Positions 12,424 through 60,532 of a stretch of DNA of 64,000 nucleotides are shown here, one piece after another (the first letter of the stretch is position 1; every line of letters starts with the position of its first letter). The stretch lies in contig CM068540.1 in assembly GCA_035048495.1 (NCBI GenBank), positions 8,540,829-8,604,828 on the forward strand, given 5' to 3'. Both the position numbers and the translations under genes were made by a program. Under the pieces are notes generated by a model. That model was not told where the DNA came from, did not search any database, and saw nothing but the letters and a program-made list of their open reading frames with translations. Origin of the DNA: Euptelea pleiosperma. Taxonomy: Eukaryota; Streptophyta; Magnoliopsida; Ranunculales; Eupteleaceae.

Positions 12424-15400
12424 GACGACGCAAAGTTGTGTCATCATGAAAAAAATAATTAAGAAAAAAGAGAAAGAAAAAGTTCCAGCAGCACTTTGGT
12501 ACCTAGGCTAGTGCCCCAATCAACATTGCTACCTACCGCCTCGTCTTAATGCCGACTAACAAGTCTGAACCGCCATTCCATGCAAGCTGAGTGATATTCG
12601 CTCAAAAGTGTTTATTTTAAGCAATTATCCTTTAAGCGTTATCACACTCTCCTACGTAAAACTGCTCTATTTATCCACTTTTCTACTTAAGAGTCTTTTT
12701 TATTGCGTAGAACACATTTTTCTGGACGAAATGATATATTTGCATGCATTAAACACATTTTCAGAAGTCTAGATATTAAGCCATTTTGATCAAGTCTCAT
12801 TACGTGCTTTTTCTATTGCAGGAAATCTGAGTGGACAATTTCAATGGAATGTGGGCCCACAATCAACCTCCAGAACCAATAATCAAAGCTCAGAGAGCCA
12901 GTTGACTTAGACAAGAAGATATAGACCAAGTGCAGGAAGAGCGAGAGGATCAAAAAGCTTGAGAGACGACCAAGAGAGAAAGAGAGACAAGCCCCCAGCG
13001 AAGAGACTAAGGAGATTAAAGCTCAACCAACTAAATCCTGAGTTCCACATCCAATGGTCATCATTTGCTCTCTCTTTTAGATCCAACTACTTACATATCC
13101 TCCATCTGTCAGATCGTCAGATCATCCATCCATTACCAAATTATCCAATCATCAGATCATCAAAATCTTCCGATCTTCAGATCATCCGATATTCATATTT
13201 CTAGATCTTTTGATCTACCTATCATCCAATAATTAGATCAAATAATCCTCAGATGAGATGATCATCTTTAATCCAATGGCCAAAAATCTACAAATTACTG
13301 GCCTTTTAGCCCGCCTAACCTCTAGTCCTTTGGCTCACTATCCTACTAACCGATCATTGGCCGATATGTGGCATCACTTCTTGGCTTATTGGCCCACCAC
13401 CATAAGGGTCCACGGCCTATCACTTATCTTGGCCCATTGCCTAACTCTCACAGGCCCAATCCTTGTGGACCTCATGGCCTTGGTTCACCATTTGATCCTA
13501 TGTGGACATGCCACCTCAAGTGAACCCCACATCACCAATAATAGCTTCAAAGGCCCACACGTGGACCCCACTTAGTGCTAGGCCACCTCACATGTGTGGT
13601 CCCCTATTTCCACAACATCTCAACCTTGGTGGGCCCCATGATTTCCTAAAGGGATTCAATGCTTCCCATATTTCTCTCTTGGAGAAAATCCCACGATTTC
13701 CTCTTCTTCTTCTTCTTCTTCTTCTCTCATTACAGTTGCTGCCTCTGCAACTCCAGCGACCACCACTGCAATGTGTTGCAGTACCACCGTCCTCAACCGG
13801 ACTGCTCGCATCTTGTCGGTGATCACCACCATGAGGACCACCAACACCCACGTTAACCCCCTCAACGTGCTACTCGTGCCCAATCGTAGCCATCAGCTAC
13901 CGCCCCTTCTCCAGCATGCTTCTAAAGCACCACCAGCTCTTCTCCTCCTTCCACAACTGCCTGCAACATTGCCCCCTGCCCTCCGGCAACTGCCTCCAAA
14001 ATGTAAGGGCTGCCTCTTCGTCTTCTCCTCCTCCTTCTTGTTCTTGTTCTTCTTTTCTTGCCGAAGTTGCAGACCTGCAACTCCAGCCGGCAGAACCAGT
14101 GCCTCCTCTTCTTCTCCTCACTCTGATCTCCCCCCAAGCTGCTACCAGCAACAGCAGGTCGCCACCATCTCCGCCGACAACTTGAACTTCCAGCAACAAC
14201 CACGCCCTCATCCAAACACCACCGCCAGCCACCACTTGTATTGGTTCAGTCCGGTGACCTCCATTGAATTCGACCACCGTTGCCTCTTCTCTTACAATTC
14301 CAGTATGCCCCCAACGGTGCTCCTCTACCGTTTTCTCCAATCCAGCTACCGTCTTCACCAACCCAGCTACCATCAACTCAGGCTATCACCCCGCAACCAG
14401 CATCACCTCCTTTATCAACAACATCATCTTCTTTCTACCCTCTCACCATTGCACTCACTTGGCTAATCCATGGCCAATCTCCACCGACATTCACCTTCCC
14501 AATCCAAGCAAACACATGGCCGGCAAAACCACCATTTCTCATTGGCTAAATTGTTCATCAATGGCCAATTCTCCGGTAAGTCTCTGATATTCGCTCAAAA
14601 GTGCTTATTTTAAGCAATTATCCTTTTAGCGTTATTGCATTCTCCTACGTAAAATACTCTATTTACCTACTTTTCTACGTAAGAGTCTCTTCTGTTGCGT
14701 AGAACACACTTTTCTGGACGAAATGGTATATTTGCATGCATTAAACACATTTTCGGAAGTCTAAATATTAAGCCGTTCTGATAAAGTCTCATTACGCGCT
14801 TCTTCTGTCGCAGGAAACCCCGATGGGACGATTCTCGAGACTTGAGGGCCCAAATCGATCATGAAAGCCCATTATCAAAGCTTAAAGAGCCCACATGCTA
14901 TGACTAGAAGATATGGGCCAAATATGGGCTGAAGAAGAGGACAAAAAAAAAAAGCCGGCCCAAAGAACGAAGAGAGCAGGAGAGCCAATGACCAAGAGAC
15001 GGACCAAAGCGTTTAAAGCCACATGAGTCAGCAAGGAATGATAGTCGACTCTACTGGAGAAGCGTGAGGATGGTCACAGTGAAGACCAGGGTTCCAGACC
15101 CTCCGCCAGTGCTTTTTTCCATTTTTTTGATACTTTTTATCTCATCTCTTCTTATTCTCTCTCTCTCTTCATCTCTCGATCCTCGAATCTACTGACTTAA
15201 CCCCAGAACTCCTACCCTTCGGCTCTATCTCATCTCCCTTAGCTTTCTGACCGTTGGATCTTCCATCGGACCGTTGGATCTTCAATCGGACCGTTGGATC
15301 TCTCTAGATCCGTCGATCTACCAATCTGGGTCCCAATCAAGTCACCATCCATCCGATCGCCATCAGAATGTCTGTCACATCATATTGTGAGACGATGGAC

Positions 15401-15551
15401 ATCATCAGTCCATGTGGGCCAATAGCCGGGCCCATCATCATCGACCCGCTGTCCGACCAGTTAGTGGACCCCGTGAATTTCAAAATAATTTTAATTAAAA
15501 AATGGGGGGTCCACTAAATGGGGAGATTCCCCATAGAAAAGTAGGTTTTTA

Positions 15552-15601
<50 letters not shown>

Positions 15602-15663
15602 AATTATTTTTCTTATTTTTTTTATTCAAAAAAGCCCCTATTTCCATTAAAGGAAATAGGGAA

Positions 15664-15699
15664 GCTTTAAAAGGAGAAGGATAGGGGTTCGTTCGAACC
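15664..15699 (+). promoter_or_regulatory. Predicted core promoter and start region of the A LTR
   Basis: A TATA-like ctttaaaagg is followed at about 20 bp by a perfect inverted repeat GGGTTCG-tt-CGAACCC and then ctaatccc. The same block is in the other LTRs (in C, tttataagagg precedes the same palindrome). Its position after U3 and before the CT-rich leader suggests the transcription start. This is inference from position. Confidence 0.5.
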
Positions 15700-15821
15700 C
15701 TAATCCCTCTCCCCTCTTCTCCTCTCCTTCCCCTTTACTCTTCCCGTCGTTTTTGGCCACATCTTCCTCCTCCTTTCTTCTTTCTCGTTTTTCCTTCTCT
15801 TCATCTTCTTCACCATTCTTC

Positions 15822-15849
15822 GCCGGAGTTGCAGGTTTGCAACTCCGGC
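15822..15849 (+). repeat. Hairpin 1 of the A LTR leader
   Basis: GCCGGAGTTGCA-GGTT-TGCAACTCCGGC: a perfect 12-bp stem with a four-base loop. An identical copy is in the 3' LTR. Confidence 0.9.
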
Positions 15850-15980
15850 CGTCCTTCTTCCTTCTTCTCTTCTCTTTCTTCTCTTCCTTCTCTTCGTCCC
15901 TCTTCCTCTCTTCCCTTTCTTCTTTCCTCTTCTTCTTCTCTTCTTCTTCTTCTTCTTCTTCTTCTTCTTCTTCTTTTACC

Positions 15981-16004
15981 GGCCGGAGTTGCAGAACTCC
16001 GGCC
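15981..16004 (+). repeat. Hairpin 2 of the A LTR leader
   Basis: GGCCGGAGTT-GCAG-AACTCCGGCC: a perfect 10-bp stem with a four-base loop, directly after the (TTC)n microsatellite. Confidence 0.9.
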
Positions 16005-16653
16005 ACCTCGTCTTCTTCACGTTTTTCTCCTCTTCCAGCCACTGCCCAACCCCTTGCTCACCTCCCCAGCGTCCTCCACGATCTCTTTTGGAGGTCCACC
16101 GCCCTCAGCCATCACCAGCGTGTGCAACTGCTTGCTGTCAAAACCGCACCACCCAGCCCACCGGACTGGTTCGCCTCCGTCTCCTCTTCTCTCCGGCAAC
16201 GCCCCCTCCTTCTCCACCTGCTACGCCTGCCCCCACTTCTTCCTCCCTGATCCTCCTCTTCCACCAGTCCGTCTTCTCCACTCGAACAACCAGCTGCCCA
16301 CCGCCTGCAACTTCTTGGGTTCGCCTGCTGCTGCACGTCACCTCCGCCTCATTGCTCCGCCTCCTTCCTAGCGTCCCAGCAGCCACGCACCAGCAGCTGC
16401 TGCCCTTCCTCAAGCAGATCATCCTCTCCACAACCTCCACCGTTGCTGCCACCTTCCAGAACGTGCAACCTTGCACGTATTCCACCTGTGAGCACCGCCT
16501 CTTCCACCTTCAATTTGCAGGTATTTGTGAGATATAAAAAAAAAATGAACCAAAAGAAAAGGGGAAGAAAAGAGAATTGGCGATTCATCCTTCATGCAAG
16601 CCACGCCTCCACCATTTGATCTTCTTCGCTGCCATGCACCACAACTCCATTGA

Positions 16654-16679
16654 CCGGAGTTGCAAACCTGCAACTCCGG
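16654..16679 (+). repeat. Hairpin 3 of the A LTR leader
   Basis: CCGGAGTTGCA-AACC-TGCAACTCCGG: a perfect 11-bp stem with a four-base loop, about 95 bp upstream of the conserved donor-like GGTAAGT. Confidence 0.9.
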
Positions 16680-17210
16680 CAATCTTCATGACCACATCTC
16701 TTGCGGTGCTACCCACCAAGATCCTCCTTGTTTCTCTTGCTGCCCCATGTCTTGGCTGTGCACCCGATCATTGGTAAGTCTAAGGTATTGTTTCTTTCTC
16801 TCTATTCTTTTTTTTTTATTTTTACTTTTCATTTTCTCTCTCTAGATTTCTTCTTTCTCTCTCTATATGTCCTCTCTCTCTAGATCTCTCTAGTTCTCTC
16901 TTTCTCTCTCTAGTTTATTTTTTTTAACGCTTTATAATTTAGTTATTTTTACTTGATTGTAAGAGACATGTTCGAATGAATGAAGTTGATTTGAATAAAA
17001 TTGTGTTCCATTTTCAGGAAATTTTCTGTCATTTTATGTTCCTATTCGCGCTAATCAGACTAATCCCGAGTGCGGATCGACATCCGACACGAATCCCTAT
17101 ACAAATCTGTCAATTTTGCAGGATAATCAGGATAAAATCGGATAAAATTACAAATCTTGTTGAAGTTAGGGTTTCCGTAACCAACGACGCAGAAAAATCC
17201 TACTTTCAAA

Positions 17211-17228
17211 TGGCGCCGCTGCCGCTCG
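17211..17228 (+). other. A primer-binding site (variant tRNA-Asp type)
   Basis: TGGCGCCGCTGCCGCTCG lies two bases after the LTR. The standard Athila site, seen perfectly in Y, is TGGCGCCGTTGCCGGGGA. The variant keeps the first 14 bases with one change (T to C at base 9) and then departs. C carries the same variant, and B has it with one further change. Confidence 0.7.
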
Positions 17229-19009
17229 GGTGTTCGGGAGTGCGAAAAAGGACGTAAAGATGGAATTGGAAAGTTGCTAAATCGGGAAGCTGCTCAATTT
17301 GGACAGCCTGACCTTTTCTGGAAACTTTCTATTTTTTGTTTTTAGTGATTTTTAGCAGTATTTTAAATTACTATTTTTAATGCCTCGGAAGGCCGAGTGC
17401 AAAGTTGTAATAATTTAGGAATTTTAACTGCCTTCCAAATAACTGCTAGATCTTGTTCTAGGGTTTTTTAGAAACCCTAGATTAAGTGGAAATTACCAAA
17501 AAAATAATAAATTCAAAATTCAAAAAAATTAGGGTTTTATATTCTGCAGATTTTTAGAAATCACCAATCAAGGATTTGCGATTTTTGGAAAGATTCCAAA
17601 ATCTTGATACTCTGCTTAATTAGGGTTTCCCCTCTTAGAAGTTTCCTCTTTAGAAGAATTTCTATCTTTAGAAATCTTCCGAATTTGGAAAAGTCTGCAA
17701 AAGGAAACGCCCCAAATCTAGCAGAATTTCAATTTTGGGAAATTTCCCAAAATTATAAGGGATCTCACAATCAAATCTTTCTTGGAAGATCTCCACAGTT
17801 CGGGAAACTTTCCAATCTAGGTATTTTCCAATCTGGGAATTCCTAAATTTTAACCCATCTCGAATTTGGAAACTCATTCAAAAACTTGCCTAAATTCAGT
17901 GCTTGTTCAGTGAACCCTAAAAAGGCAAGGATCTTCCAAATAGAATCCCACATACCTAGACCGTGCGATCTAACTGTTTCTGCAGGAACACGATCCAGTG
18001 TGGGTAGAGAGCGAAAGCTCAAAGAGGTGGAGTCGGGCCCAAGCCCATTAGGATACCCCTCTCTAACCCACGGAGGAGACCCCGTGGCGTGGCCCGCGGG
18101 AGGTAAGTCTCTATCCTCGCCTTGAGTGCGATACAGAGCATATTGGGTGAATCATTGCCGCTTGTCTATTTGCTTTTGCTTACATATTATTCGACTTGCG
18201 TGGCGTGGTCGTTAATCAATCAACTCTAAGAGAGCAGACCCAGCTCCAAAATTGAAACTGGTGGGATTTCATCACCCACCTCATCACTCCAGCTGAAATT
18301 GATCCCCAAGATCCATTTAATTAAAAAGAATCAAGAAGTAGAGCCAATTAGCCCGGTGTTCGAGGAAAAATCCACGCAAAGCGAACCCGCTTAACATCCA
18401 ATCGAAATAAGACCACGAGCGCGGGTCCCTGTTGTCTAACACACCCATAAGTCCCTGCTACTCAAGTACACTGAGCTCGACGTGGCATCTTGGACTATTC
18501 GGCGGTTAGTTGCGTGTGGACTAGGAACACGCACCAACCCTAGCTTAACCCGAGGGAACACTCTTCTTCTACACTTGACCAATCCGGTTAGTCTGGGACG
18601 TACTTAAGACAGCCATTGTGCCGCACGTCTGTCTAGGCTTCGGATTGCCTTGTTGTTGACTAGAGTTAGTACTAAAGGATTCGCTCTGAAGAGTGTAGCC
18701 TGGTGAGAACCTCTGAGTGCATACAGTTAGTCCGGCGGCTAAAAGATAAACCAGTGGTCCGCCCACTGTCATAATCTACTCTAGCCCCAAAACTAACAAG
18801 ATAATGCCTAAAATATATCCTGATTGTTTAGAATAGGATTATCTGTGCTTGGTGTGCATCATTTAGAATCACTACTCCAGTGTCTCCTTTTGGCAACTTT
18901 TTGCCAAATCTTGGGCTTACTTTTTCAAGTAGAAGCCCAGTTGGACCTGCCTTAACCTTTTACTGACTCGATCTGAGAGTTAGTCCATCGTACCCCTCCA
19001 TCGCCTCTA
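17229..19009 (+). other. Long untranslated leader of element A
   Basis: About 1.78 kb with no ORF of note. It is shared with C (41311-42990) and, inverted, with B (56205-57725 and about 38189-38440). It contains the inverted pair ctagggttt/aaaccctag (17458-17466 and 17472-17480) and further tagggttt (telo-box-like) motifs. It also has repeated ggaaa/tttcc-rich oligomers (17590-17850) and a good splice-donor match, GGAGGTAAGTCTC (about 18100). Function is unknown; a packaging or dimerisation region is expected here in LTR elements. Confidence 0.6.
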
Positions 19010-20863
19010 ATGGCAGATGAACGGCCTCTGTATGAGACCTACTACAGTTTCTGTGAGACTCGAGGTGATCACTCTCAACAATGGTATGACAATTCTGCGT
19101 ATCATCATGATACTCCAGTCTCGCACACTTCTACAGGGTATGATAATCACCGAGATCCGGAGTACAATTCTGTACTCCAAGAGCTTAAAAATTCAGTCTC
19201 TGCCCTTCGTGCCGCGGTCCAGCAACCTGTGCACCATTCCCAGTCTGTAGGATATTACCCTCCTATCCAGCAAGATGTCAGTACCTTTCCATCTCCAATG
19301 CAGACCTCCTATGACAACACTTATTATCCGGATAATAGGAGTCACCATAACTTTGGTTGGGAACAGTCTGCCCTCCCGCAGCAATTGCCGCAGGATAATT
19401 ATCCTTCCGGGTTCCATCAACCCAATGGAGAGTATGACTGGCAATACTCGCAATCCCAGTACCCGTCATATCCACAGAATGACTATTCTGATCAACAGTG
19501 GGCCCCTCAGGATTTTCAGAGTCAGCAACTAGTCCCAGACTCCACATTGCCTTACAACTTTCATACCCAGTCGGACTACAATCAAGAGTTCGCACCTCAG
19601 CTCCCCTTGGCTGAACCACCTCCGTTGGCTACTAAACCCGGTCTAGAGGACCTTCTCTCTCAGTACATTGCCCAGCAACAACAGTATTTCCAAGGTCTAG
19701 AGCACCAACAACAGTTATCTATGGAGAGCTTGGAGCAACGTCTAGTTCAATTAGAAAATGAGAGAGAGGAAGCCAACTTCACTAGCCCACCAATAGCCTA
19801 TCTAGAGGAGAGTGACATGGCCACTGTCTATAATGAGGAGTCCTACAATTGGACCAAGTACCAGAATTGCCAGGATGAAATAGAAGTTGTTACCACCCCT
19901 AGATCAAGCTTGATTATTGAGGAACCAGTGTATCCTTATACGGTGCCTTTAAAAGCACCACATCCTGAACATACCTCAGAGCAACCTATTTCTCACTCTC
20001 CCACTGCTGCTTCTAACCTGGACCCTGAAGATGATCATCATGACACTGAGCTGTGTCTCGATTGTAGGATCCCAACTGTCATTGATCTACCGTTCCTCCC
20101 CACCTCCCTTGGATTGTGCAACAATAGTGATGAACCCGAGTCTCAATCTTTGGTGCCCTTAACAGCATCAACTTCTAGACCGAGCCCAGAGAAACCCAGT
20201 TCCATCTCTATCTCTGATAATTCTTCCTTTGCCCTGGATGCAGACATTCTCACTGATGAGCCATGTCTAGAACATGGGACGCCCACTGTCCTGGACCTAC
20301 CGTTCCCCACCGAGGATGAACATATTGAATGTAGGGATTGGAACATCCCTATCACATTAGGAAATATCGAGGAAGAGGTCAACAATTTTCACCCGCTACC
20401 CTACGTCAATATTATCGATGACCCGTGTGCCGTAGCGAGTCTAATCCAGGACTCTCCCAAGGATATATTATCCAAGTGTCATGAACACTGTGAGTTTGAC
20501 TTCATCTCGAAGTCCAATACTTCTGGTATTACTGATCTGCAGGAGTCTGCTCCATTCAGATACATTCCCGTAAAACTCAATGAGTTTGCGGCTCTGCTAA
20601 CCACGGTCAGAGAACCCACTACTACTCCCCTCTCAGTCTTTACTGAGAAGCTTCTATCCCTCCCCACTGAACTAAATATTTTTGCGGGTCTGCTCAGAGA
20701 AACCACTCCTACTCTCCTTTCAATCTTTACTGAGAAGATTCGATCCCTCCCAGATCAACTCCGTACTTTTGCCGGTCTGCTCAGAGAGCTCACTGTCCTT
20801 CTCTCAGTCTACACTGAGAAAGACCTGTTCTACACAGGTATACCTAGACAAGGGATAGGATAA
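19010..20863 (+). CDS. 617-aa Gag-linker-derived protein of the non-autonomous Athila element A
   Basis: An uninterrupted ORF, the only one in element A. Its N-terminal 300 residues follow the second half of Gag from element C. ENSQHW-like GDHSQQW is at about residue 20. The helix NSVLQELKNSVSALRAAV, then PSGFHQPNGEYD, a Gln-rich coiled-coil-like stretch (EDLLSQYIAQQQQ...LEQRLVQLENE, about 213-260) and NCQDEIEVVTTPRSS come next. The capsid core, the CCHC knuckle and the protease are missing. After a Ser/Pro/Asp-rich part with a duplicated PTV(I/L)DLPF motif, CRDWNIPITLGNIEEEVN and CAVASLIQDSPKDIL match the segment just downstream of protease in C. The tail (about 522-607) has three repeats around FAGLLRE..LLS(V/I)(F/Y)TEK. 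The ATG was chosen because homology to C starts within a few codons. It may be a Gag-interacting or RNA-binding accessory; function is unknown. Confidence 0.8.
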   Translation: MADERPLYETYYSFCETRGDHSQQWYDNSAYHHDTPVSHTSTGYDNHRDPEYNSVLQELKNSVSALRAAVQQPVHHSQSVGYYPPIQQDVSTFPSPMQTSYDNTYYPDNRSHHNFGWEQSALPQQLPQDNYPSGFHQPNGEYDWQYSQSQYPSYPQNDYSDQQWAPQDFQSQQLVPDSTLPYNFHTQSDYNQEFAPQLPLAEPPPLATKPGLEDLLSQYIAQQQQYFQGLEHQQQLSMESLEQRLVQLENEREEANFTSPPIAYLEESDMATVYNEESYNWTKYQNCQDEIEVVTTPRSSLIIEEPVYPYTVPLKAPHPEHTSEQPISHSPTAASNLDPEDDHHDTELCLDCRIPTVIDLPFLPTSLGLCNNSDEPESQSLVPLTASTSRPSPEKPSSISISDNSSFALDADILTDEPCLEHGTPTVLDLPFPTEDEHIECRDWNIPITLGNIEEEVNNFHPLPYVNIIDDPCAVASLIQDSPKDILSKCHEHCEFDFISKSNTSGITDLQESAPFRYIPVKLNEFAALLTTVREPTTTPLSVFTEKLLSLPTELNIFAGLLRETTPTLLSIFTEKIRSLPDQLRTFAGLLRELTVLLSVYTEKDLFYTGIPRQGIG

Positions 20864-21268
20864 TTGTTTCCGTTCCACCTTAGGTGTCAGGAAGACTGCA
20901 GATTCACTCAGTCTCCATGAGTTTTAACCTGGTTGGGGGTACTTGATATACCCCCGTCATGTCTGGCTGAAGACGTAAAACTTAGCGCTTTCGGAAAGGC
21001 AATTCCGGTATTCCTAGAGTACATGAGTCTCATGCATTTGTGATTATTGTTATATCTCTGAAAATGCAGGTACATTCATTCTCCCAATCATCAGGTATCA
21101 CACACTGTCGAGTTTCTGTCGACTTGGTAACATCCTTCCTGAATCTTTGCATCATCATCACTGATTTGTTATCATTTTATGTCCCGGTCATGAGCACCGA
21201 GGACGGTGCTATATTTTGGTTGGGGGTGGGTATTTACCAAAACTCATGTATTCCTTTTGATAAATATA

Positions 21269-21299
<31 letters not shown>

Positions 21300-22844
21300 A
21301 AGGTTATTTTTTGGGTGATTTCCGATGTTCTCCAAAAGTTTTCTAGAATTTCAAAAATGTGTCAAATACCCTGACTTTGATTAGCTGAAAACCTCCGTTA
21401 AGTCAGTATTGAGGATGTCAATTTTTGTTTAAAGTTAGCGTTGAATCAAGTCAAGCGTGGCTACAGCAGGTTTGAAAACTCAGAAAAACTCAGATTTGGC
21501 ACAATTGTACACTATCAACATCAGAGTCGTCCTAAGTTTTGAAACTCTAGAGATCCTGTGAGAAGAATTGTGGAGACCTAACCCAGTGAGCTTTCGAGCC
21601 TTTAATCATTTCAGAGAGTTATACAATAATCCTGAGTCAATGGATGACTCACTATTCTTCATGCCCGCAATATTCGTTGAGAGATCTCATTATCTTTTGC
21701 TTCGATCATGGAACTCGGAACGACATCAACATTGGATTACTACGACAGAACCTTCTCTATATTCAGTCAAGACAGTATACATGATAGTGCAAACCCTAGA
21801 AAATGATTTAGGCCATTTTTCTGAACCATTCAGCCTTTTTACTCACCTGAATTATACTTCACTAGAAACCCCTTGAGCCATTCTATAAAAGCCTTTTCTT
21901 TGTAAACCCATCATCCTAAAATCCAGTCTAGCTACGAAGCATGACTGTCTACCCTTATTTTGAGATGAACAAAAGAATAACTGATGTGGGTGTACCGTGA
22001 AAAAAAAAAAAGTAAAGAAGAAGAATCAAAAGGAAAAGAAAGTGGTTCAAGCCAAAAACAAAATATAGAAAGAAAGTATGAAGAAGAGCTGAAAAGAAAT
22101 TGAGCAGTCTCAGAAATATCAAGAAAAAGAGAAAAATACGAAAAAAGGAAAAAGAACCAGATAATGGTGTTACGTCGCAGGAAAAATTCAAGAAAATGGC
22201 AATATCCTCTCAAGATCTTTGAAATCCTGTATTCCTTTATCTCTCTACACCTGACCTAAGCCTCATTACAACCCAGGAAAGTCCTACTTGATTCTAGGAT
22301 AGCACGATCATAAAATGTGGAGATTGGAGAAAGAGAAGCTATAGAGTTTGATCTGACGTTCCCAAGTGAAGTGGTATTCCAATCATGAGATCTTCTTCTG
22401 TTAAAGATGTCCTTCCTTCAAATAAAACATATGTGAGATCTTTTGCCTCTTTATATTAAATACATCTCCTCACATATAAATTGAGAGAAAAGAAGAAAAC
22501 CCTTCTTGTGTGATTCTATTCTGAGTGCTAAACATGTGAGATTTGAGGTCAAGGCATAAAAACTTAGAGGTGATCTGAAAATCTTTACTGTCGGATGATG
22601 AGAATGTTGAGCACACACACACGCAGAGTCTGACTATTCTGGGTCATGATTATCAGTCTGTAGTCTTGCCAAAACTTTCAAACTCTTCGCTAGCATGTAA
22701 CTGTTTTTGCATCCATTCAATAATTTGACGAACGGTGTTTTCCCGGAGCTAATATGAAAAAGTGTGCAGCATGTGCAGAGCCCTTTTAAGCTCATTTATT
22801 TCGCACTAATTGCCAAGGATTGGCAATATGCTGGTTGGGGGTTG
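20864..22844 (+). other. Non-coding 3' region and polypurine tract of element A
   Basis: About 1.98 kb shared with C (48772-50702) and B (33892-35834, inverted). It holds GGTTGGGGGT three times: just after the ORF (20931-20940), at 21218-21227, and in the polypurine tract next to the LTR (22833-22844). It also has an A tract (about 21277-21298). Athila elements often carry an env-like ORF here; none is present. The 102-codon frame at 21568-21876 has no intact counterpart in C, so I did not call it. Confidence 0.7.
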
Positions 22845-23810: not shown

Positions 23811-23860
<50 letters not shown>

Positions 23861-26078: not shown

Positions 26079-26083
26079 AACTT

Positions 26084-35834: not shown

Positions 35835-35842
35835 AGAGACAA

Positions 35843-36015: not shown

Positions 36016-36021
36016 GGATAA

Positions 36022-37607: not shown

Positions 37608-37612
37608 TTTTG

Positions 37613-38188: not shown

Positions 38189-38440
38189 TAGAGGCGATGG
38201 AGGGGTGCGGTGGACTAACTCTCAGATCGAGTCAGTAAAAGGTGAGGACAGGTCCAACTGGGCTTCTACTTGAAAAAGTAAGCCCAAGATTTGGCAAAAA
38301 GTTGCCAAAAGGAGATACTGGAGTGGTGATTCTAAATGATGCACACCAAGCACAGATAATCCTATTCTAAACAATCAGGATATATGTTAGGCATTATCTT
38401 GTTAGTTTTGGGGCTGGAGTAGATTATGACAGTGGGCGGA

Positions 38441-39404: not shown

Positions 39405-39444
<40 letters not shown>

Positions 39445-41290: not shown

Positions 41291-41292
41291 AA

Positions 41293-41310
41293 TGGCGCCG
41301 CTGCCGCTCG
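41293..41310 (+). other. C primer-binding site (variant tRNA-Asp type)
   Basis: TGGCGCCGCTGCCGCTCG, identical to that of A, two bases after the LTR. Confidence 0.7.
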
Positions 41311-45267: not shown

Positions 45268-45282
45268 TTAGGACTGAAAGAT

Positions 45283-48771: not shown

Positions 48772-50702
48772 TGATCTACTCAGTCTCCTGTGCTCCAACT
48801 TGGTTGGGGGTGCCTGTCACCCCCGTCATGTCTGGCTGAAGACGTAAAACTTAGCGCTTTCGGAAAGGCAATTCCGGTATTCCTAGAGTACATGAGTCTC
48901 ATGCATTTGTTATTACTGTTATATCTCTGAAAATGCAGGTACATTCATTCTCCCGATCATCAGGTACCAAACACTGTCGAATTTCTGCCGACTTGGTAAC
49001 ATCCTTCCTGAACTTTTGCATCATCATCACTGAATTTTTATCATTTTATGTCCCGGTAATGAGCACCGAGGACGGTGCTATATTTTGGTTGGGGGTGGGT
49101 ATTTACCAAAACTCATGTATTCCTTTTGATAAATATATAAAAAAAAAAAAAAAAAAAAGAAGGTTGTTTTTGGGGTGATTTCCGATGTTCTCCAAAAGTT
49201 TTCTAGAATTTCAAAAATGTGTCAAATACCCCGACTTTGATTAGCTGAAAACCTCCGTTAAGTCAGTATTGAGGATGTCAATTTTTGTTTAAGGTTAGCT
49301 TTGAGTCAAGTCAAGCGTGGCTACAGCAGGTTTGAAAACTCAGAAAAACTCAGATTTGGCACAATTGTACACTATCAACATCAGAGTCATCCTAAGTTTT
49401 GAAACTCTAGAGATCCTGTGAGAATAATTGTGGAGACCTAACCCAGTGAGCTTTCGAGCCTTTAATCAATTCAGAGTGTTATACAACAATTCTGAGTCAC
49501 AAGATGACTCACTATTCTTCATGCCCGCAATATTCGTTGAGAGATCTCATTATCTTTTGCTTCGATCATAAAACTCGGAACGACATCAACATTGGATTAC
49601 TACGACAGAACCTTCTTTGTATCCAGTCAAGACAGTATACATGATAGTGCAAACCCTAGAAAATGATTTAGGCCATTTTTTCTGAACCATTCAGCCTTTT
49701 TACTCACCTGAATTATACTTCACTAGAAACCCCTTGAACCCTTCTATAAAAGCCTTTTCTTTGTAAGCCCATTAACCAAAAACCCAGTTTAGCTACGAAG
49801 TGTTACTAGCTACCCTACTTTTGAGAAGGATAAAAAATAACTGATGTGGGTGTACCGTGAAAAGAAAAGTAAAGAAGAAAAATCAAAAGGAAAAGAAAGT
49901 GGTTCAAGCTGAAAACAAAATATGGAAAGAAAGTATGAAAAAGTGCTGAAAAGAAATTGAGCAGTCTCAAAAATATCAAGAACAAGAGAAAAATATGAAA
50001 AAAAGGAAAAAGAACCAGATAATGGTGTTACGTCGCAGGAAAAATACAAGAAAATGACAATATCCTCTCAAGATCTTTGAAATCCTGTATCCCTTTATCT
50101 CTCTACACCTGACCTAAGCCTCATTACAACCCAGGAAAGTCCTACTTGATTCTAGGATAGTACGATCATAAAATGTGGAGATTGGAGAAAGAGAAGCTAT
50201 AGAGTTTGATCTGACGTTCCCGAGTGAAGTGGTATTCCAATCATGAGATCTTCTTCTGTTAAAGATGTCCTTCCTTCAAATAAAACATATGTGAGATCTT
50301 TTGCCTCTTTATATTAAATATATCTCCTCACATATAAATTGAGAGAAAAGAAGAAAACCCTTCTTGTGTGATTCTATTCTGAGTGCTAAACATGTGAGAT
50401 TTGAGGTCGAGGCATAAAAACTTAGAGGTGATTTGGAAATCTTTACTGTCGGATGATGAGAATGTTGAGCACACACACACGCAGAGTCTGAATATTCTGG
50501 GTCATGATTATCAGTCTGTAGTCTTGCCAAAACTCTCCAACTCTTCGCTAGCATGTAACTATTTTTGCATCAATTCAATGATTTGACGAACGGTGTTTTC
50601 CCTGAGCTAATATGAAAAAGTGTGCAGCATGTGCAGAGCCCTTTTAAGCTCACTTATTTCGCACTAATTGCCAAGGATTGGCAATATGCTGGTTGGGGGT
50701 TG
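48772..50702 (+). other. 3' non-coding region and polypurine tract of element C
   Basis: About 1.93 kb, similar to that of A. GGTTGGGGGT occurs at 48802-48811, 49087-49096 and 50691-50700; the last is the polypurine tract next to the LTR. No env-like ORF. An A tract lies at about 49138-49158. Confidence 0.75.
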
Positions 50703-52973
50703 TGATATTCGCTCAAAAGTGCTTATTTTAAGCAATTATCCTGTTAGCGTTATTGCATTCTCCCACATTAAAATACTCTATTTATCTACTTTTCTACGTA
50801 AGAGTCTCTTTTGTTGCGTAGAACACACTTTTCTGGACGAAATGGTATATTTGCATGCATTAAACACATTTTCGAAAGTCTAGACATGAAGTCATTCTGA
50901 TAGAGTCTCATTACGCGCTTCTTCTGTCGCAGGAAACCCCGATGGGACGATTCTCGAGACTTGTGGGCCCAAATCGATCATGAGAGCCCATTATCAAAGC
51001 TTAAAGAGCCCACATGCTATGACTAGAAGATATGGGCCAAATAGGGGCTGAATCAGAGGACCAAAAAGCCGGCCCAAATAACGAAGAGAGCAGGAGAGCC
51101 AATGACCAAGAGACGGACCAAAGCGTTTAAAGCCACATGAGTCAGCAAAGAATGATAGTCGACTCTACTGGAGAAGCGTGAGGATGGTCACAGTGAAGAC
51201 CAGGGTTCCAGACCCTCCGCCAGTGCTTTTTTCCATTTTTTTTTGATACTTTTTCTCTCATCTCTCCTTATTCTCTCTCTCTCTTCATCTCTCGGTCCTC
51301 GAATCTACTGACCTAACCCCAGAACTCCTGCCCATCAGCTCTGAAAGTAGGTATTTTCCGCGTCGTTGGTTACGGAAACCCTAACCTCAACAAGATTTGT
51401 AATTTTATCCGATTTTATCCTGATTATCCTGCAAAATTGACAGATTTGTATAGGGATTCGTGTCGGATGTCGATCCGCACTCGGGATTAGTCTGATTAGC
51501 GCGAATAGGAACATAAAATGACAGAAAATTTCCTGAAAATAGAACACAATTTTATTCAAATCAACTTCATTCATTCGAACATGTCTCTTACAATCAAGTA
51601 AAAATAACTAAATTATAAAGCGTTAAAAAAAATAAACTAGAGAGAGAAAGAGAGAACTAGAGAGATCTAGAGAGAGAGGACATATAGAGAGAGAAAGAAG
51701 AAATCTAGAGAGAGAAAATGAAAAGTAAAAATAAAAAAAAAGAATAGAGAGAAAGAAACAATACCTTAGACTTACCAATGATCGGGTGCACAGCCAAGAC
51801 ATGGGGCAGCAAGAGAAACAAGGAGGATCTTGGTGGGTAGCACCGCAAGAGATGTGGTCATGAAGATTGCCGGAGTTGCAGGTTTGCAACTCCGGTCAAT
51901 GGAGTTGTGGTGCATGGCAGCGAAGAAGATCAAATGGTGGAGGCGTGGCTTGCATGAAGGATGAATCACCAATTCTCTTTTCTTCCCCTTTTCTTTTGGT
52001 TCATTTTTTTTTATATCTCACAAATACCTGCAAATTGAAGGTGGAAGAGGCGGTGCTCACAGGTGGAATACGTGCAAGGTTGCACGTTCTGGAAGGTGGC
52101 AGCAACGGTGGAAGTTGTGGAGAGGATGATCTGCTTGAGGAAGGGCAGCAGCTGCTGGTGCGTGGCTGCTGGGACGCTAGGAAGGAGGCGGAGCAATGAG
52201 GCGGAGGTGACGTGCAGCAGCAGGCGAACCCAAGAAGTTGCAGGCGGTGGGCAGCTGGTTGTTCGAGTGGAGAAGACGGACTGGTGGAAGAGGAGGATCA
52301 GGGAGGAAGAAGTGGGGGCAGGCGTAGCAGGTGGAGAAGGAGGGGGCGTTGCCGGAGAGAAGAGGAGACGGAGGCGAACCAGTCCGGTGGGCTGGGTGAG
52401 AGGGGAACAGGCGGTGGTGGTGGACTGGTTAACGTGAACCAGTCCGCCGGAGGAGTTTAAAAACTCGCCTGCTGGTTGCAGGCGCAAGTGGAGGTGCAGC
52501 TGGAGGCTGGCGGTCGTGCAGCAGCAAGGAGAGAAGAAGAAAAAGAGAAGAAGAAAGGAAGAAGAAGAAGGCGGAGACGGCCGGAGTTCTGCAACTCCGG
52601 CCGGACGAAGAAAAGAAAAAAAAAAGAAGAAGAAAAGAAGAAGAAGAAGAAGAAGACGAGAAGGAGAAGAAGAAAGAAGAAAGGGAAGAGAGGAAGAGGG
52701 ATGAAGAGAAGAAAGAGAAGAGAAGAAGGACGGCCGGAGTTGCAAACCTGCAACTCCGGCGAAGAATGGTGAAGAAGATGAAGAGAAGGAAAAACGAGAA
52801 AGAAGAAAGGAGGAGGAAGATGGGGCCAAAAACGACGGGAAGAGTAAAAGGGGAAGGAGAGGAGAAGAGGGGAGAGGGATTAGGGTTCGAACGAACCCTT
52901 CTCCTTCCTCTTATAAAGCTCCCTATTTCCATTAATGGAAATAGGGTATTTTTTAAATAAAAAAAATATTTTT

Positions 52974-53023
<50 letters not shown>

Positions 53024-54313
53024 TAAAATGCTACTTTTCTATGGGGAATCTCCCCAATTAGTGGACCCCCCATTTAATTAAAATTATTTTTGAAATTCGC
53101 GGGGTCCACTAACTGGTCGGACAGCGGGTCGATGCTGATGGGCCCGGCTACTGGCCCACATGGACTGATGATGTCCATCGTCTCACAAGATGATGTGACG
53201 GGCATTCTGAAGGCGATCGGATGGATGGTGACTTGATTGGGACTCAGATTGGTAGATCGACGGATCTAGAGAGATCCAACGGTCCGATTGAAGATCCAAC
53301 GGTCCGATGGAAGATCCAACGGTCAGAAAGCTAAGGGAGATGAGATAGAGCCGATGGGCAGGAGTTCTGGGGTTAGGTCAGTAGATTCGAGGACTGAGAG
53401 ATGAAGAGAGAGAGAGAATAAGGAGAGATGAGAGAAAAAGTATCAAAAAAAATGGAAAAAAGCACTGGCGGAGGGTCTGGAACCCTGTTCTTCACTGTGA
53501 CCATCCTCACGCTTCTCCAGTAGAGTCGACTATCATTCTTTGCTGACTCATGTGGCTTTAAACGCTTTGGTCCGTCTCTTGGTCATTGGCTCTCCGGCTC
53601 TCTTCGTTCTTTGGGCCGACTTTATGGTCCTCTTATTCAGCCCATATTTGGCCCATATCTTCTAGTCATAGCATGTGGGCTCTTTAAGCTTTGATAATGG
53701 GCTTTCATGATCGATTTGGGCCCACAAGTCTTGAGAATCGTCCCATCGGGTTTCCTGCGACAGAAGAAGCGCGTAATGAGACTTTATCAGAACGGCTTAA
53801 TATCTAGACTTCCGAAAATGTGTTTAATGCATGCAAATATACCATTTCGTCCAGAAAAGTGTGTTCTACGCAACAGAAGAGACTCTTACGTAGAAAAGTA
53901 GGTAAATAGAGTATTTTACGTAGGAGAATGCAATAACGCTAAAAGGATAATTGCTTAAAATAAGCACTTTTGAGCGAATATCAAGCTCTATCTCATCTCC
54001 CTTAGCTTTCTGACCGTTGGATCTTCCATCGGACCGTTGGATCTTCAATCGGACCGTTGGATCTCTTTAGATCCGTCGATCCACCAATCTGAGTCCCAAT
54101 CAAGTCACCATCCATCCGATCGCCATCAGAATGTCTATCACATCATCTTGTGAGACGATGGACATCATCAGTCCATGTGGGCCAATAGCCGGGCCCATCA
54201 TCATCGACCCGCTGTCCGACCAGTTAGTGGACCCCGTGAATTTCAAAATAATTTTAATAAAAAATGGGGGGTCCACTAATTGGGGAGATTCCCCATCATA
54301 AAGTAGGTTTTTA

Positions 54314-54356
<43 letters not shown>

Positions 54357-56199
54357 TTTTTATTCAAAAAATACCCTATTTCCATTAATGGAAATAGGGA
54401 GCTTTATAAGAGGAGGGAGAAGGGTTCGTTCGAACCCTAATCCCCCCCTTTCTCTTCCATTCTCTCCCCCTATCAATCCCGCACGGATCCCACCTCTCTT
54501 GGCGGCTGTTTTTCCTCGACTTCTCCTCCATCTTCGTCATCTTCTTCATCATTTTTCCACCGGAGTTGCAGCCTGCAACTCCGGCCACCACTGCAACATC
54601 TCTTTGGCCCACGCCCTCATATTTTCTCCCCCTCATTCTATTCTCTCTAGCTATCAAGCCATCACCACCAGTTTGGGTGGCGATCCCATTTCCGTCTCCT
54701 CTCTTGCTGCCTCTCCAACCCGCCTGCAAGGCCTAAAACTTGGCAGCGCCTCCACTCAACAACCGATCTCATCCTTCCATGCATGGCTATCAATCCCACC
54801 TGTAGCTCGCACCACAGCAACAGTAGCAACTCCCCCTAGCCGATCGGTAAGTTCTTCTTCTTCTGCCTCTTCTAACAAGAAAACTTCCATTACCGGAGTT
54901 GCAGACCTGCAACTCCGGTCGTTCTGAAATAGCACCGCCTCTGCCGTCCTCACCTTGGACTCCAGTCCACCATTAAAGCCTCTCCCCACCTACTGCTATC
55001 ACGGCCTGCAACCTTTGCAGGCCGACCTTCTCTAGTCGTGTTCACTGATCTACAACCTCCACACAACCCATCCTCAACGTGATCTGGAGTTGCAGGTTCA
55101 CCGTCTCCTTCATCACCATCACGACCTGCAACTCTGAGTTGCAGGTCCGCCCTCATATTTTCTCCCCTCTCATCTCAACTCCTCTCTTCACCGTTCTTTC
55201 TCCCTTGAGAAAAGGAGAGCAAAAACAAGAAAAAAAAAAAAAAAATATTTTCAAGATCACCGGAGTTGCAACCTGCAACTCCGGCGAGCACCATTGAAAC
55301 CGGCGACCTTCTTCTTTCTCTTTCCTTCTCTCCATCCCTCAAATAAACCCAGCCACCGTCACCCTCCTCCTCTTCTTCACCGTTCCACAAACAAAAAGAA
55401 AAAAAAAAAAACCAAAAAAGAGAAGAAGAAGAGGACGTCTGCCCTCCACCTCGCCTTCACATCAGTCTCCACTTGCAGCAACCAGCGCCTCCATCATCAC
55501 CGACTCCTACCTGCTGGAGTGCCAGCCCAGCTCGCCAGCAACCACCAAGGGTTCTCACTCTTGATGGCTCCTTCCACGGTCTCAACTCCATCATGGCCGA
55601 CCTACTACAAGTCCAAATCTGATCTCCTCCGTCGATGCCAAACTCTGATAAGTCCTATGGTAATACTCTCCTCTCTAAACTCAATCACTCAATTCTCTCT
55701 CTAAGCCTTTCCACTTTCTCTCTCTAGAATATACCTCCTCTCTCTCTACCTTTCTCTCTCTATCTCCCTTCTATTTCATGCTTTCTAGTTAATTTTTGAA
55801 ATTTATTTATGCACCAATCAGTTTCAAGATTATTGTAAGTTACTTTTCATTTGAATAAAGATGGTTAATTTCTTTAGTTTTGCTTATTATATTATGTTCT
55901 TCTTATTTTCTCTCTCATCATTTTAGCAGATAATGGTTCACTCTAAAATTTATAAAATCAATCATATTTTAATCCCGTGATCATCATTCTCACCCTTCAA
56001 TCTCTTCTTTTTAGCAATTTTTGAGAAAAACCCGTCATTTTATGTCCTTGATTTGCATGAACTAATCCCGAGTGCGGATCGACATCCGACACGAATCCCT
56101 ATACAAAAGCTCATATTTTGCAGGATAATCGGATCAAATTACAAATATTATTGAGATTAGGGTTTCCGTAACCAACGACGCGGAAAAACCCTACTTTCA
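50703..56199 (+). mobile_element. C, 3' LTR, split by solo LTR D
   Basis: Pieces 50703-51341 and 53989-56199 join to exactly 2850 bp, the length of the 5' LTR. The cut lies in cccatcagctctatctcatc, duplicated as AGCTC on both sides of D. The hairpins recur at about 54560-54584, 54892-54919, 55003-55023, 55123-55147 and 55260-55284. Confidence 0.92.
51342..53983 (-). mobile_element. Element D: solo LTR of the Athila family
   Basis: 2642 bp, minus strand, TGATATTCGC (53983) to TACTTTCA (51342). It is flanked by AGCTC (51337-51341 and 53984-53988), so it is a solo LTR produced by LTR-LTR recombination. From 51342 to about 52400 it is almost identical to the A LTR. From 52400 to about 52590 it has unrelated sequence (aaactcgcctgctggttgc and around), and beyond 52600 it resembles the group again with its own differences. 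It thus looks mosaic. Hairpins lie at about 51869-51894, 52579-52602 and 52734-52760. The T run at 52976-53020 is the minus-strand A tract. Confidence 0.9.
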
Positions 56200-56204
56200 G
56201 CGGA

Positions 56205-57743
56205 CCACTGGTTTATCTCTTAGCCGCCGGACTAACTGTATGCACTCAGAGGTTCTCACCAGGCTACACTCTTCAGAGCGAATCCTTTAGTACTAACTCT
56301 AGTCAACAACAAGGCAATCCGAAGCCTAGACAGACGTGCGGCACAATGGCTGTCTTAAGTACGTCCCAGACTAACCGGATTGGTCAAGTGTATAAGAAGA
56401 GGATTCCCTCGGGTTAAGCTAGGGTTGGTGCGTGTTCCTAGTCCACACGCAACTAACCGCCGAATAGTCCAAGATGCCACGTCGAGCTCAGTGTACTTGA
56501 GTAGCAGGGACTTATGGGTGTGTTAGACAACAGGGACCCGCGCTCGTGGTCTTATTTCGATTGGATGTTAAGCGGGTTCGTTTTATGTGGATTTTTCCTC
56601 GAACACCGGGCTAATTGGCTCTACTTCTTGATTCTTTTTAATTAAATGGAGCCTTGGGATCAAATCAGTTGGAATGATGAGGTGGGTGATGAAATCCCAC
56701 CAGTTTCAATTTGGAGCTGGGTCTGCTCTCTTAGAGTTGATTGATTAACGGCCACGCCACGCAAGTCGAAGAATATGGATGCGAAAGCAAATAGACAAGC
56801 GGCAATGATTCACCCAATAACACCGTATCGCACTCAAGGCGAGGATAGGGACTTACCTCCCGTGGGCCACGCCACGGGGTCGCCTCCGTGGGTTAGAGAG
56901 GGGTATCCTAATGGGCTTGGGCCCGACTCCACCTCTTTGAGCTTTCGCTCTCGACCCACACTGGATCGTGTTCCTGCAGAAAAGTTAGATCGCACGGTCT
57001 AGGTATTTGGGATTCTATTTTGGAAGATCCTTGCCTTTTTAGGGTTCACTGAACAAGCACTAGATTTAGGCAAGTTTTTGAATTAGTTTCCAAATTCGAG
57101 ATGGGTTAAAATTTAAGAATTCCCAGATTGGAAAATACCTAGATTGAAAAGTTTCCCGAACGGTGGAGATCTTCCAAGAAAGATTTGATTGCGAGATCCC
57201 TTATAATTTTGGGAAATTTCCCAAAATTGAAATTCTGCTAGATTTGGGATGTTTCCTTTTGCAGACTTTTCCAAATTCGGAAGATTTCTAAAGATAGAAA
57301 TTCTTCTAAAGAGGAAACTTCTAAGAGGGGAAACCCTAATTAACAGAGTTTCAAGATTTTGGAATCTTTCCAAAAATCGCAAATCCTTGATTGGTGATTT
57401 CTAAAAATCTGCAGAATATAAAACCCTAATTTTTTGAATTTTGATTTTTTAATTTTTTTGGTAATTTCCACTTAATCTAGGGTTTCTAAAAAACCCTAGA
57501 ACAAGATCTAGCAGTTATATGGAAAGCAGTAAAATTCCTAAATTATTACAAATTGCACTCGGCCTTCCGAGGCATTAAAAATAGTAATTTAAAAAATGCT
57601 AAAAATCAACAAAAATAAAAAATAGAAAGTTTCCCGAAAAGGTCGGGCTGGCCAAATTGAGCAGCTTTTCGCTTCAGCAACTTTCCAATTCCGTCTTTAC
57701 ATCCTTTTTCGCACTTCCGGTCACCCGAGCGGCAGCGACGCCA
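56205..57743 (-). other. B leader (5' part) and primer-binding site
   Basis: On the minus strand this is the leader of B from its primer site to the point where C is inserted. The site (57743-57726, minus) reads TGGCGTCGCTGCCGCTCG: the A/C variant with one more change. The leader continues on the far side of C at 38440. Confidence 0.75.
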
Positions 57744-57745
57744 TT

Positions 57746-60532
57746 TGAAAGTAGGATTTTTTCGCGTCGTTGGTACGGAAACCCTAACTTCAACACATTT
57801 TTAATTAATCCGAGACTTTTAACCTGTAAAATGAGCAATTTTGCACAGTGGCTTGTGTCGGATGTCGATCCGCACTCGGGATTAGTCGGATTAGCGCGAA
57901 TAAGAACATAAAATGACGGGAAATTTGTAGAGAATGGAACATAATATTATTCAAATCAACTTCATTCAATCGAACATGTCTCTTACAATCAAGTAAAAAT
58001 AACTAAATTATAAAGCATAAAAAAAAGAATAAACTAGAGAGAGAAGGAGAGAACTAGAGAGAGAAAATAGAGAAATCTAGAGAGAGAAATTAGAGAGGAG
58101 ATTGTAGAGATAGAGAGAGAAATAAGAGAGTGGTAGAGAGAGGAATAGAGTCTTAGAGAGATAGAAAAGCAATCTATAAAGAGAAAAGCGAGAAGAGAGA
58201 GAAGAGAAAGAAGAGAGAGATTAGGAAACTCACCGCAATCTTACCATAGACGATGATGGTGGCTGGCCTTGGAGGAGAATGTGGTGCGATAATGGCATCC
58301 CGAGGTGGTAATGGAACACCACAAAACCAGTCACCAATAGAGGTGGGTTGCGTGGTGAAAAGTCATGGAGGAGCACCATCGGTGGTTGTTGCTGCCGGTC
58401 TTGAGAAGAGGAAGATGCTTTCGTGGAGGACACGCACAGCCTCGGAGAGGGGAGTCAGGTAGGGGTGATCCCTTCTTTTTCTCTCTTTCTCATCTTCTCT
58501 CCTTCCTCTTTTCTTTGCTGCCTTTTTCTTTTATTTTTTTTTGTTTGTTTTCTTTTCTTTTTTTTTTCTTGAAGGATGGCAGAAGAGAGAGGATGGAGAG
58601 CACGGAGGTGCTACTGGTTGCTGGCCGATGTGGGGGAGGAAGGGAATAAGGTGGAAGGCGGTAATGGTGCTGGAATGGTGAGACGGTGGTGGTATGGGAC
58701 GTGGATGCAGGCGGACTTGTAAAAGATGCTGATGTTGAGGCAGCAGGTTGGTGGTGCAGGGGGTTAACGGTGTTGAACAAGAGAGAGAAGAGAGGATGGT
58801 GAAGGACGGTGGCGGTTGTGCTGGGCGGTGGTGAAGCTTCAACCGAAAATGATTATTGTGGAAACGGCACGGCCTGCAACTAAGTTGCAGGCATTGTTTG
58901 ATGGATTAATAGTGGTGGCAGCAGGCGGTCGTTGTGGAAGACGAGAAGAAGAAGGTGAAGAAGGAGACGGAGAGGGCGGTTCTTGACGTGGTGACCGGAG
59001 TTGCAGGCTGCAACTCCGGTAAGCAAACGTGAACAAGAAGCGGTGCTGTCTGTGGCAGCAAGCTCTGCTGCGCACAGGCGGAGGGGGGAAGCTTTAGATG
59101 AAGGAGAAGTAGAACGAGACAGCAGAAGAAGAAGAGAAGAAGGAGGCGGCCGGAGTTCTGCAACTCCAGCCGGAATGAAGAAGAAGAAGAAGAAGAAGAA
59201 GAAGAAGAAGAAGAAGAAGAAGAAGAGGAGGAAAGAAGGAAGAAGAAAGGGAAGAGAGGAAGAGGAAAGAAGAGAAGGAAGAGAAGAAAGAGAAGAGAAG
59301 AAGGAAGAAGGACGGTCGGAGTTGCAAACCTGCAACTCCGGCGAAGAATGGTGAAGGAGACGAAGAAGAAAGGAGGAAGAAGAGGAGAAAGAAGTCGCCG
59401 AGAAGAAGGGAAAGGATAGGGGGAAGGAGAGGAGGAGATTGGAGGGGGATTAGGGTTCGAACGAACCCCTATCCTTCTCCTTTTAAAGCTCCCTATTTCC
59501 TTTAATGGAAATAGGGTATTTTTTGAAAATAAAAAATATGAAAAATATATATATATATATATTTTTTTTAAGTAAAAACCTACTTTTCTATGGGGAATCT
59601 CCCCAATTAGTGGACCCCCCATTTAATTAAAATTATTTTGAAATTCGCGGGGTCCACTAACTGGTCGGACAGCGGGTCGATGAAGATGGGCCCGGCTATT
59701 GGCCCTCATGGATTGATGATGTCCATCGTCTCACAAGATGATGTGACAGACAGTCTGATGGCGATCGGATGGATGGTGACTTGATTGGGACTCAGATTGG
59801 TAGATCGACGGATCTAGAGAGATCCAACGGTCCGATTGAAGATCCAACGGTCCGATGGAAGATCTAACGGTCGGAAAGCTAAGGGAGATGAGATAGAGCC
59901 GATGGGCAGGAGTTTTGGGGTTAGGTTAGTAGATTCGAGGACCGAGAGATGAAGAGAGAGAGAGAATAAGGAGAGATGAGAGAGAAAGTATCAGAAAATA
60001 GAGAGAAAAGCACTAGCGGAGGGTCTGGAACCCTGGTCTTCACTGTGACCATCCTCACGCTTCTCCAGTAGAGTCGACCATCATTCTTTGCTGACTCATG
60101 TGGCTTTAAACGCTTTGGTCCGTCTCTTGGTCATTGGCTCTCCTACTCTCTTCGTTCTTTGGGCCGGCTTTTTGGTCCTCTTATTCAGCCCATATTTGGG
60201 CCATATCTTCTAGTCATAGCATGTGGGCTTGTTAAGCTTTGATAATGGGCTTTCATGATCGATTTGGGCCCACAAGTCTCGAGAATCGTCCCATCGGGGT
60301 TTCCTGCTACAGAAGAAGCGCGTAATGAGACTTTATCAGAACGGCTTAATATTTAGACTTCCAAAAATGTGTTTAATGCATGCAAATATACCATTTCGTC
60401 CAGAAAAGTGTGTTCTACGCAACAGAAGAGACTCTTACGTAGAAAAGTAGGTAAATAGAGTATTTTACGTAGGAGAATGCAATAACGCTAAAAGGATAAT
60501 TGCTTAAAATAAGCACTTTTGAGCGAATATCA
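57746..60532 (-). mobile_element. B, 5' LTR
   Basis: 2787 bp, minus strand, from TGATATTCGC (60532) to TACTTTCA (57746). It has better-preserved hairpins than the 3' LTR: the one near 58996-59020 is ccggagttgcag..., where the 3' LTR has ccagagttgcag. It is followed by the second CATAC. Confidence 0.9.

Follow-up and report, generated by a model that had tools for sequence, protein, structure and literature searches.

A capsid-less, apparently Gag-derived reading frame kept open by selection in a non-autonomous LTR retrotransposon family of Euptelea pleiosperma

The stretch of DNA analysed here, 64,000 nucleotides (nt) of contig CM068540.1 of Euptelea pleiosperma (assembly GCA_035048495.1, positions 8,540,829 to 8,604,828; hereafter the window), contains the long terminal repeat (LTR) retrotransposons A, B and C (Table 1), and our subject is the open reading frame (ORF) of element A, which encodes a Gag-related protein of 617 amino acids (aa) without a capsid match. 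Element A fits the structural definition of a non-autonomous LTR retrotransposon: it possesses an LTR pair, a target duplication, and primer-binding site (PBS) and polypurine regions (both judged by eye, a tRNA scan having found none), and its ORF gives no reverse transcriptase (RT) or integrase domain match. As its LTRs are 99.92% identical across 2624 aligned positions and the target duplication GTCTC is present, it was inserted very recently; element B, with LTRs 98.5% identical and the target duplication GTATG, is an older member of the same family. Alignment confirms the claim of an earlier note on this DNA that A and B share with C the ends of the LTR, the PBS region, the leader and the 3' region. 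By virtue of the LTR, leader and 3' region held in common, and of an ORF whose nearest relative is C Gag, A can be placed in the same lineage as C. This lineage is presumably Athila. The shared ends, together with the near-identical LTRs, point to probable mobilisation of A by a helper.

Element C has the domain order Gag, RT, RNase H and integrase; its Gag has 243 relatives in the protein database, and of the 120 best of these, all that carry a name come from plants. The earlier reading of C as an autonomous element would hold for the family rather than for this copy, in which a single in-frame stop, at ~45.27 kb, separates the Gag part from the Pol part. The position is a sense codon in two other C-type copies, and 82 of the 150 scored C-type capsid matches sit in frames of at least 1900 aa; hence, the C-type family is potentially autonomous. 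Among those of the 150 C-type positions that were picked for their proximity, neighbours lie 11.2–12.5 kb apart. A third type, D (L034:3486-6309, with 2 stops), differs from C in pol by a proportion of nonsynonymous differences (pN) of 0.09, with the proportion of synonymous differences (pS) saturated.

The protein of A aligns with two parts of the coding region of C, namely residues 12-317 with C Gag 246-601 at 38% identity, and residues 409-556 with C Pol 36-176 at 40% identity. Its bit scores are 187 against C Gag and 86 against C Pol, with all others at 23 or less (120 C Gag relatives having been fetched). These alignments support the original description of the ORF as post-capsid Gag joined to a post-protease segment, which however needs to be extended on two counts: residues 345-366 are a 22-residue second occurrence of part of the protease tail (E 0.002), and the start of Gag is probably retained too, with residues 1-11 agreeing with C Gag 50-60 at 8 places (by itself this match has an E of 0.24, the support being its position at the start). 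The 87-nt repeats that close the ORF resemble, by eye and unscored, the C segment just before RT. On the other hand, C Gag 61-245, which holds the capsid, has no counterpart in the alignment, nor do the zinc-knuckle-like stretch, the core of the protease and the part of Pol past the aligned segment; the CX2CX4HX4C stretch of C Gag is what we take to be the zinc knuckle. The best explanation of this architecture is that the ORF descends from gag-pol by in-frame loss of the capsid, the zinc knuckle, the protease core and the RT–RNase H–integrase region. Residues 1-200 hold 1 K and 4-5 R as against 24-25 D and E (five copies counted); with so few basic residues, a protein–protein role of this part seems likelier than RNA binding.

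The family is large, genome-wide and recently active. A search of the 613-Mb genome with the A protein gave 71 scored copies among 6325 first-look candidates, of which 65 are without a stop and 63 cover the entire protein in one piece; their listed frames measure 599-635 aa and therefore leave no room for a capsid. We complemented these with a sample based on the LTR and blind to the ORF, for which all 38 LTR-start matches outside the window were traced downstream (a 54-nt match being left out), the upstream side being covered by 2 whole stretches and by short probes that reached 20 of the 24 places listed. With the three identical copies of one array (L003-L005 on C36) counted once, this sample comprises 13 distinct ORF copies: six are fully open (L003, L008, L035, L037, L062 and L063), L006 is open up to the cut-off, and six have stops, four of the latter being partial. 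Six further copies, hand-picked from the 40 best DNA matches with their net lengths visible beforehand, are all open. Thus, the paucity of intact copies that would have marked the ORF as a remnant was not encountered. As a separate observation, A-type elements form tandem arrays with a period of 8.2-8.6 kb at C2:24846708-24906490, C6:29442427, C6:43756711, C6:46173159, C12:31074791, C12:31696383 and on C36 (L003-L005).

The frame of the ORF is kept open by selection, as revealed first by the lengths of insertions and deletions (indels) relative to A. Distinct indels, binned by position within 4 nt and with the ends excluded, are multiples of 3 in 16 of 17 cases in the ORF (10 copies), whereas the leader (8 copies, of which one, L032, is by our reading from a C-type element) has 1 of 31 and the 3' region (7 copies) 5 of 35, a bias relative to the flanks with a Fisher P of 2e-11. 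Across 19 copies, 19 of 21 ORF indels are multiples of 3, and both exceptions fall in partial copies that also have stops. Likewise, among the 40 best matches of each region, A included, a net length change is seen in 37 of the 3' regions (11 by multiples of 3) and in only 7 of the ORFs (5 by multiples of 3); one +2 row, C7:15225211, reads as a single frame and may be an alignment-end effect. Stops tell the same story. Nine pairs of copies, which exclude B and L025 and whose independence was taken from a FastTree tree, constitute a fair test of stops, since a smaller set of six pairs takes copies that are already open. They contain 6 stops (5 counted and 1 filtered by the script, which skipped any codon at which the copy listed first is itself a stop, this being the one case) where 32.7 are expected. 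Even residues 259-617 have no stop where 6.9 are expected in the six open pairs, and 3 where 16.2 are expected in the nine. The old copy L020, at a synonymous distance (dS) of 0.43 from A, has one stop where 17.4 are expected and indels only in multiples of 3; it matches Gag from residue 246 on, with the capsid not matched.

Selection on the residues themselves is clear in one part of the protein. We compared pN/pS with neutral simulations having context-dependent rates drawn from the flanks, which may recombine themselves; the resulting null is ~0.68 and not 1. Plain dN/dS by the Nei–Gojobori method (NG86) was dropped as evidence: it gives 0.51-0.74 relative to A, which resembles selection, and because its neutral null is itself ~0.66-0.71, only null-scaled and regional tests were used. 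Early single comparisons of pN/pS with the null were not significant (P 0.07-0.67). For the whole ORF, the ratio stands at 0.72 of the null in the 6 independent open pairs and 0.81 in the 9 pairs (0.76 and 0.83 in smaller sets), with single old pairs at 0.86-0.87; whole-ORF dN/dS taken alone is weak evidence of selection. For residues 1-200, however, the ratio is 0.35 (6 pairs) and 0.42 (9 pairs) of the null, as low as which none of 400 simulations reached, and 0.61 between A and the older L020. Here pS is 0.063, against 0.062 in residues 259-480, and pN 0.015 against 0.039; with equal pS and unequal pN, the constraint on residues 1-200 acts on the protein. The same method gives C Gag 0.20-0.27 overall and 0.06-0.10 in its capsid and is therefore able to detect strong constraint. 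In sum, the ORF is under purifying selection, strong on the frame and on residues 1-200, and weak on the rest. The dN/dS check suggested in the earlier note thus has a divided outcome, with the first 200 residues clearly below neutral, the remainder near it and the ORF as a whole only mildly below. The selected role that the note had proposed is favoured by the frame-keeping indels, the few stops, the many open copies and the constraint on residues 1-200, and is qualified by a remainder that is about neutral at the amino-acid level.

Of the expectation that the ORF is intact in the very young A and present as an older copy in B, only the former part survives: B has only fragments, the 5' one with a stop at codon 71, and where the part matching A 19586-20689 (1.1 kb of the ORF) should be, it has 1588 nt of LTR that do not differ from the LTR of A, in what looks like a recent ectopic event. 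The stop at codon 71 is common to B and another broken copy, L018, by either recurrence or exchange. Elsewhere in the window lie an old LTR start fragment of 338 nt with 83% identity to the A LTR (12592-12929), a short array of tandem repeats, each ~30 nt long, detected from self-matches (61057-61451), and an ORF resembling by eye part of a Ty1/copia integrase (8603-9079).

Table 1. Features of elements A, B and C, in coordinates of the window.
Feature	Position	Strand	Remarks
Element A, non-autonomous, presumably Athila type	14585..25467	+	5' LTR 14585-17208, 3' LTR 22845-25467; duplication GTCTC
Leader of A, PBS region at 5' end	17209..19009	+	94.7-98.7% identity with C per 150 nt to ~18860
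617-aa ORF of A, capsid-less, apparently Gag-derived	19010..20863	+	Pfam: 0 matches at E up to 1
Probable remnant of the Gag N-terminus, aa 1-11	19010..19042	+	8/11 residues as in C Gag 50-60
Post-capsid Gag linker, aa 12-200	19043..19609	+	acidic, with Q/Y/P enriched in aa 81-200; purifying selection across aa 1-200
Predicted long helix, aa 212-254	19643..19771	+	ten-residue blocks 211-250 at pLDDT 53-71, the model maximum
aa 259-600: linker end, protease tail (partly doubled), following Pol segment	19784..20809	+	amino-acid neutral, frame kept
87-nt in-frame repeats near ORF end	20607..20787	+	one whole unit absent from several copies
C-terminal tail, aa 601-617	20810..20860	+	almost unchanged among 7 open copies, all kinds of change being rare
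3' region of A	20864..22844	+	homology with C restarts at 20894
Element B, same family as A	31117..60532	-	LTRs 57746-60532 and 31117-33891; interrupted by C insertion
B ORF 3' end fragment	35844..36016	-	–
LTR piece replacing middle of B ORF	36024..37611	-	1588 nt; 100% identical to A LTR
B ORF 5' fragment	37613..38188	-	192 codons; stop at codon 71
Element C, copy of potentially autonomous C-type	38441..56199	+	5' LTR 38441-41290; 3' LTR from 50703; duplication GCGGA
C Gag frame	42991..45267	+	PF03732 (capsid) spans aa 130-222
CX2CX4HX4C stretch of C Gag, aa 326-339	43966..44007	+	absent from A
C Pol (RT, RNase H, integrase)	45283..48771	+	same frame as Gag
Solo LTR within 3' LTR of C	51342..53983	-	duplication GAGCT

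The relationship of A to C differs sharply between the coding region and its flanks. Their leaders are 94.7-98.7% identical per 150-nt window to ~18860; identity then drops to ~40% over a stretch that opens ~150 nt ahead of the ATG and closes 30 nt past the stop; and from 20894 the 3' regions are again mostly 93-99% identical (lowest window 87.7%). Expressed as divergence, the 3' region stands at 4.7% and the leader at 3.2%, as against a coding dS of ~1.9 (pS 0.69). Intrinsic conservation of the 3' region was considered as the cause of this likeness and rejected: C and D, with saturated synonymous sites, differ there by 30%, and the region is therefore not simply conserved. A tree of the 3' region places C among A-type copies with 98-100% bootstrap support, and in that of the leader two C-type copies do not group. 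Further, in one copy with an ORF at 100% (rounded) identity to that of A, the 3' region diverges by 4.3% and does so as a mosaic: 200 nt are identical, followed by portions 11% and 6% off, a portion at 21894-22094 like that of C, L003 and L037, and an A-like portion again, which we take as probable template switching or gene conversion. If the flanks of A and C were exchanged by template switching, then the RNAs of both would have shared particles, and the contrast between shared ends and private ORF may record which RNAs did so.

Putting these strands together, we consider it fairly likely that the A family is mobilised in trans by C-type elements, and that its ORF is selected for a disordered linker that co-assembles with the helper Gag. 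Briefly, newly made A protein would bring A RNA to the sites of helper assembly, where its Q/Y/P-rich linker would co-assemble with the matching linker of helper Gag; the helical segment might join this co-assembly, though this is less certain. The fast-evolving C-terminal part might then serve as a spacer ahead of the conserved tail, a weak point since changes of every kind are scarce in the tail. Co-assembly through the linker is plausible because Ty1 Gag, according to PMC10372613, has a disordered prion-like domain needed for retrotransposition and particle assembly, although the analogy to the A linker is one of composition only. Decidedly more tentative is the fuller version of this proposal, in which the only protein of a satellite is a capsid-less Gag acting as a disordered assembly tag that recruits RNA to helper particles, with the ends of the element refreshed by template switching.

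Several observations weigh against the favoured reading as a whole. The fold prediction of the A protein is poor (mean predicted local distance difference test score, pLDDT, 31). At 0.72-0.83 of neutral, its whole-ORF pN/pS is far from the 0.20-0.27 of C Gag; residues 259-617 are at 0.90 and 0.91 of the null, not significantly below it, and between A and L020 at 1.34, above 0.98 of the null; and the helical part (201-258) is at 1.25 (6 pairs) and 1.03 (9 pairs) of the null, though at 0.39 between A and L020. Ranking by score gives intact copies an advantage among the 71, which moreover are not independent, since 20 lie within 20 kb of another where 0.4 would be expected under uniform placement. 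Outside the Euptelea genome no relative of the A ORF reached the thresholds in the protein database (with 4891 candidates examined at E 0.001 and 5081 at E 1, in the very database that gave 243 matches to C Gag) or was confirmed in viral contigs, and a search of solved structures yielded 2 matches, at E 0.4. With regard to the flanks, approximately unbiased (AU) tests did not reject trees without exchange (p 0.12 for the 3' region, 0.10 for the leader, and 0.096), and L034, the D yardstick, is partly decayed, with its 2 stops.

The neutrality of residues 259-617 in a frame that is nevertheless kept is the chief attraction of an alternative in which the ORF is retained merely for being translated, the open frame shielding the RNA from decay or aiding its packaging while the residues are free to change. 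This we regard as unlikely, as residues 1-200 are constrained as protein at an ordinary pS, and C-type elements carry the same long 3' region. Less probable still is that the A protein, as a fragment of Gag, interferes with the helper and reduces its activity. A partial Gag in a family sharing its ends with a helper would suit such a role, for which the Ty1 restriction factor is a precedent (PMC7055915); however, that factor derives from the capsid gene, as against A with no capsid match, and a helper-dependent element gains little from stopping its helper. We assign a similarly low likelihood to an action on the host, for example against silencing, rather than on helper particles: fast evolution, including a ratio of 2.09 for residues 481-560 between A and L020 (above 0.995 of simulations, but one of many tests), would be in keeping with it, whereas the constraint falls on the Gag-derived linker and not on the fast part. 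Finally, that the ORF is a decaying deletion remnant, open only since its copies are young, is highly improbable: it has in its favour the stops of B, L018, L025, L020, L041, L009 and L064 and a whole-ORF pN/pS not far below neutral, but is rejected by the frame and stop tests, with 65 of 71 scored copies stop-free and even L020, for all its age, in the state described above.

A can be compared with the known classes of dependent elements. Large retrotransposon derivatives (LARDs) and terminal-repeat retrotransposons in miniature (TRIMs) are defined by having no coding capacity, whereas A has a 617-aa ORF open in many copies. BARE-2 of barley and the SNRE/SARE elements of soybean are reportedly non-autonomous partners that share or swap LTRs; we know of no capsid-less Gag ORF in them. 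TR-GAG elements encode a Gag domain: like A, they have a Gag-derived ORF between LTRs and no pol, but A matches no Gag domain model. More generally, the A ORF is under purifying selection as are those of Gag-keeping elements (TR-GAG, Quinta and the Athila gag families), but its lack of a capsid match places A outside that class.

Three published systems allow closer comparison. Arabidopsis has Athila families without pol whose ORFs are open and under purifying selection (Marco and Marin 2008, PMC2410132). They resemble A in lineage (presumably Athila for A too), in the lack of pol, in selected ORFs and in recombination between families (probable for A); these keep gag, or gag and env, whereas A lacks both the capsid match and the zinc knuckle, and no env was seen in it. 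The wheat pair RLG_Quinta/RLG_Cereba (PMC11302176) is like A and C in its common LTR parts and PBS, its helper dependence, an extra domain without assigned function, and a coding part similar as protein but barely so as DNA; Quinta, however, retains GAG and is believed to provide it, while A has no capsid to supply. The rule invoked in the earlier note, that non-autonomous elements usually retain whole Gag or nothing, fits both, and in the open-licence literature, including passages of PMC11963269, we noticed no capsid-less plant Gag ORF. The non-autonomous endogenous pararetroviruses of grasses (PMC5491270), though not LTR elements, parallel the exchange proposed for A, their noncoding regulatory sequences being homogenised with those of their partners by recombination. 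A amounts to a natural experiment in which the post-capsid linker of Gag has been parted from its capsid, and the role of that linker can be tested in a plant whose genome carries numerous nearly identical copies of each partner. Helper-dependent elements with a coding frame have usually been read as suppliers of Gag; with a frame selected in the absence of any capsid to supply, A provides an unusual test of how non-autonomous elements cooperate with their self-sufficient partners.

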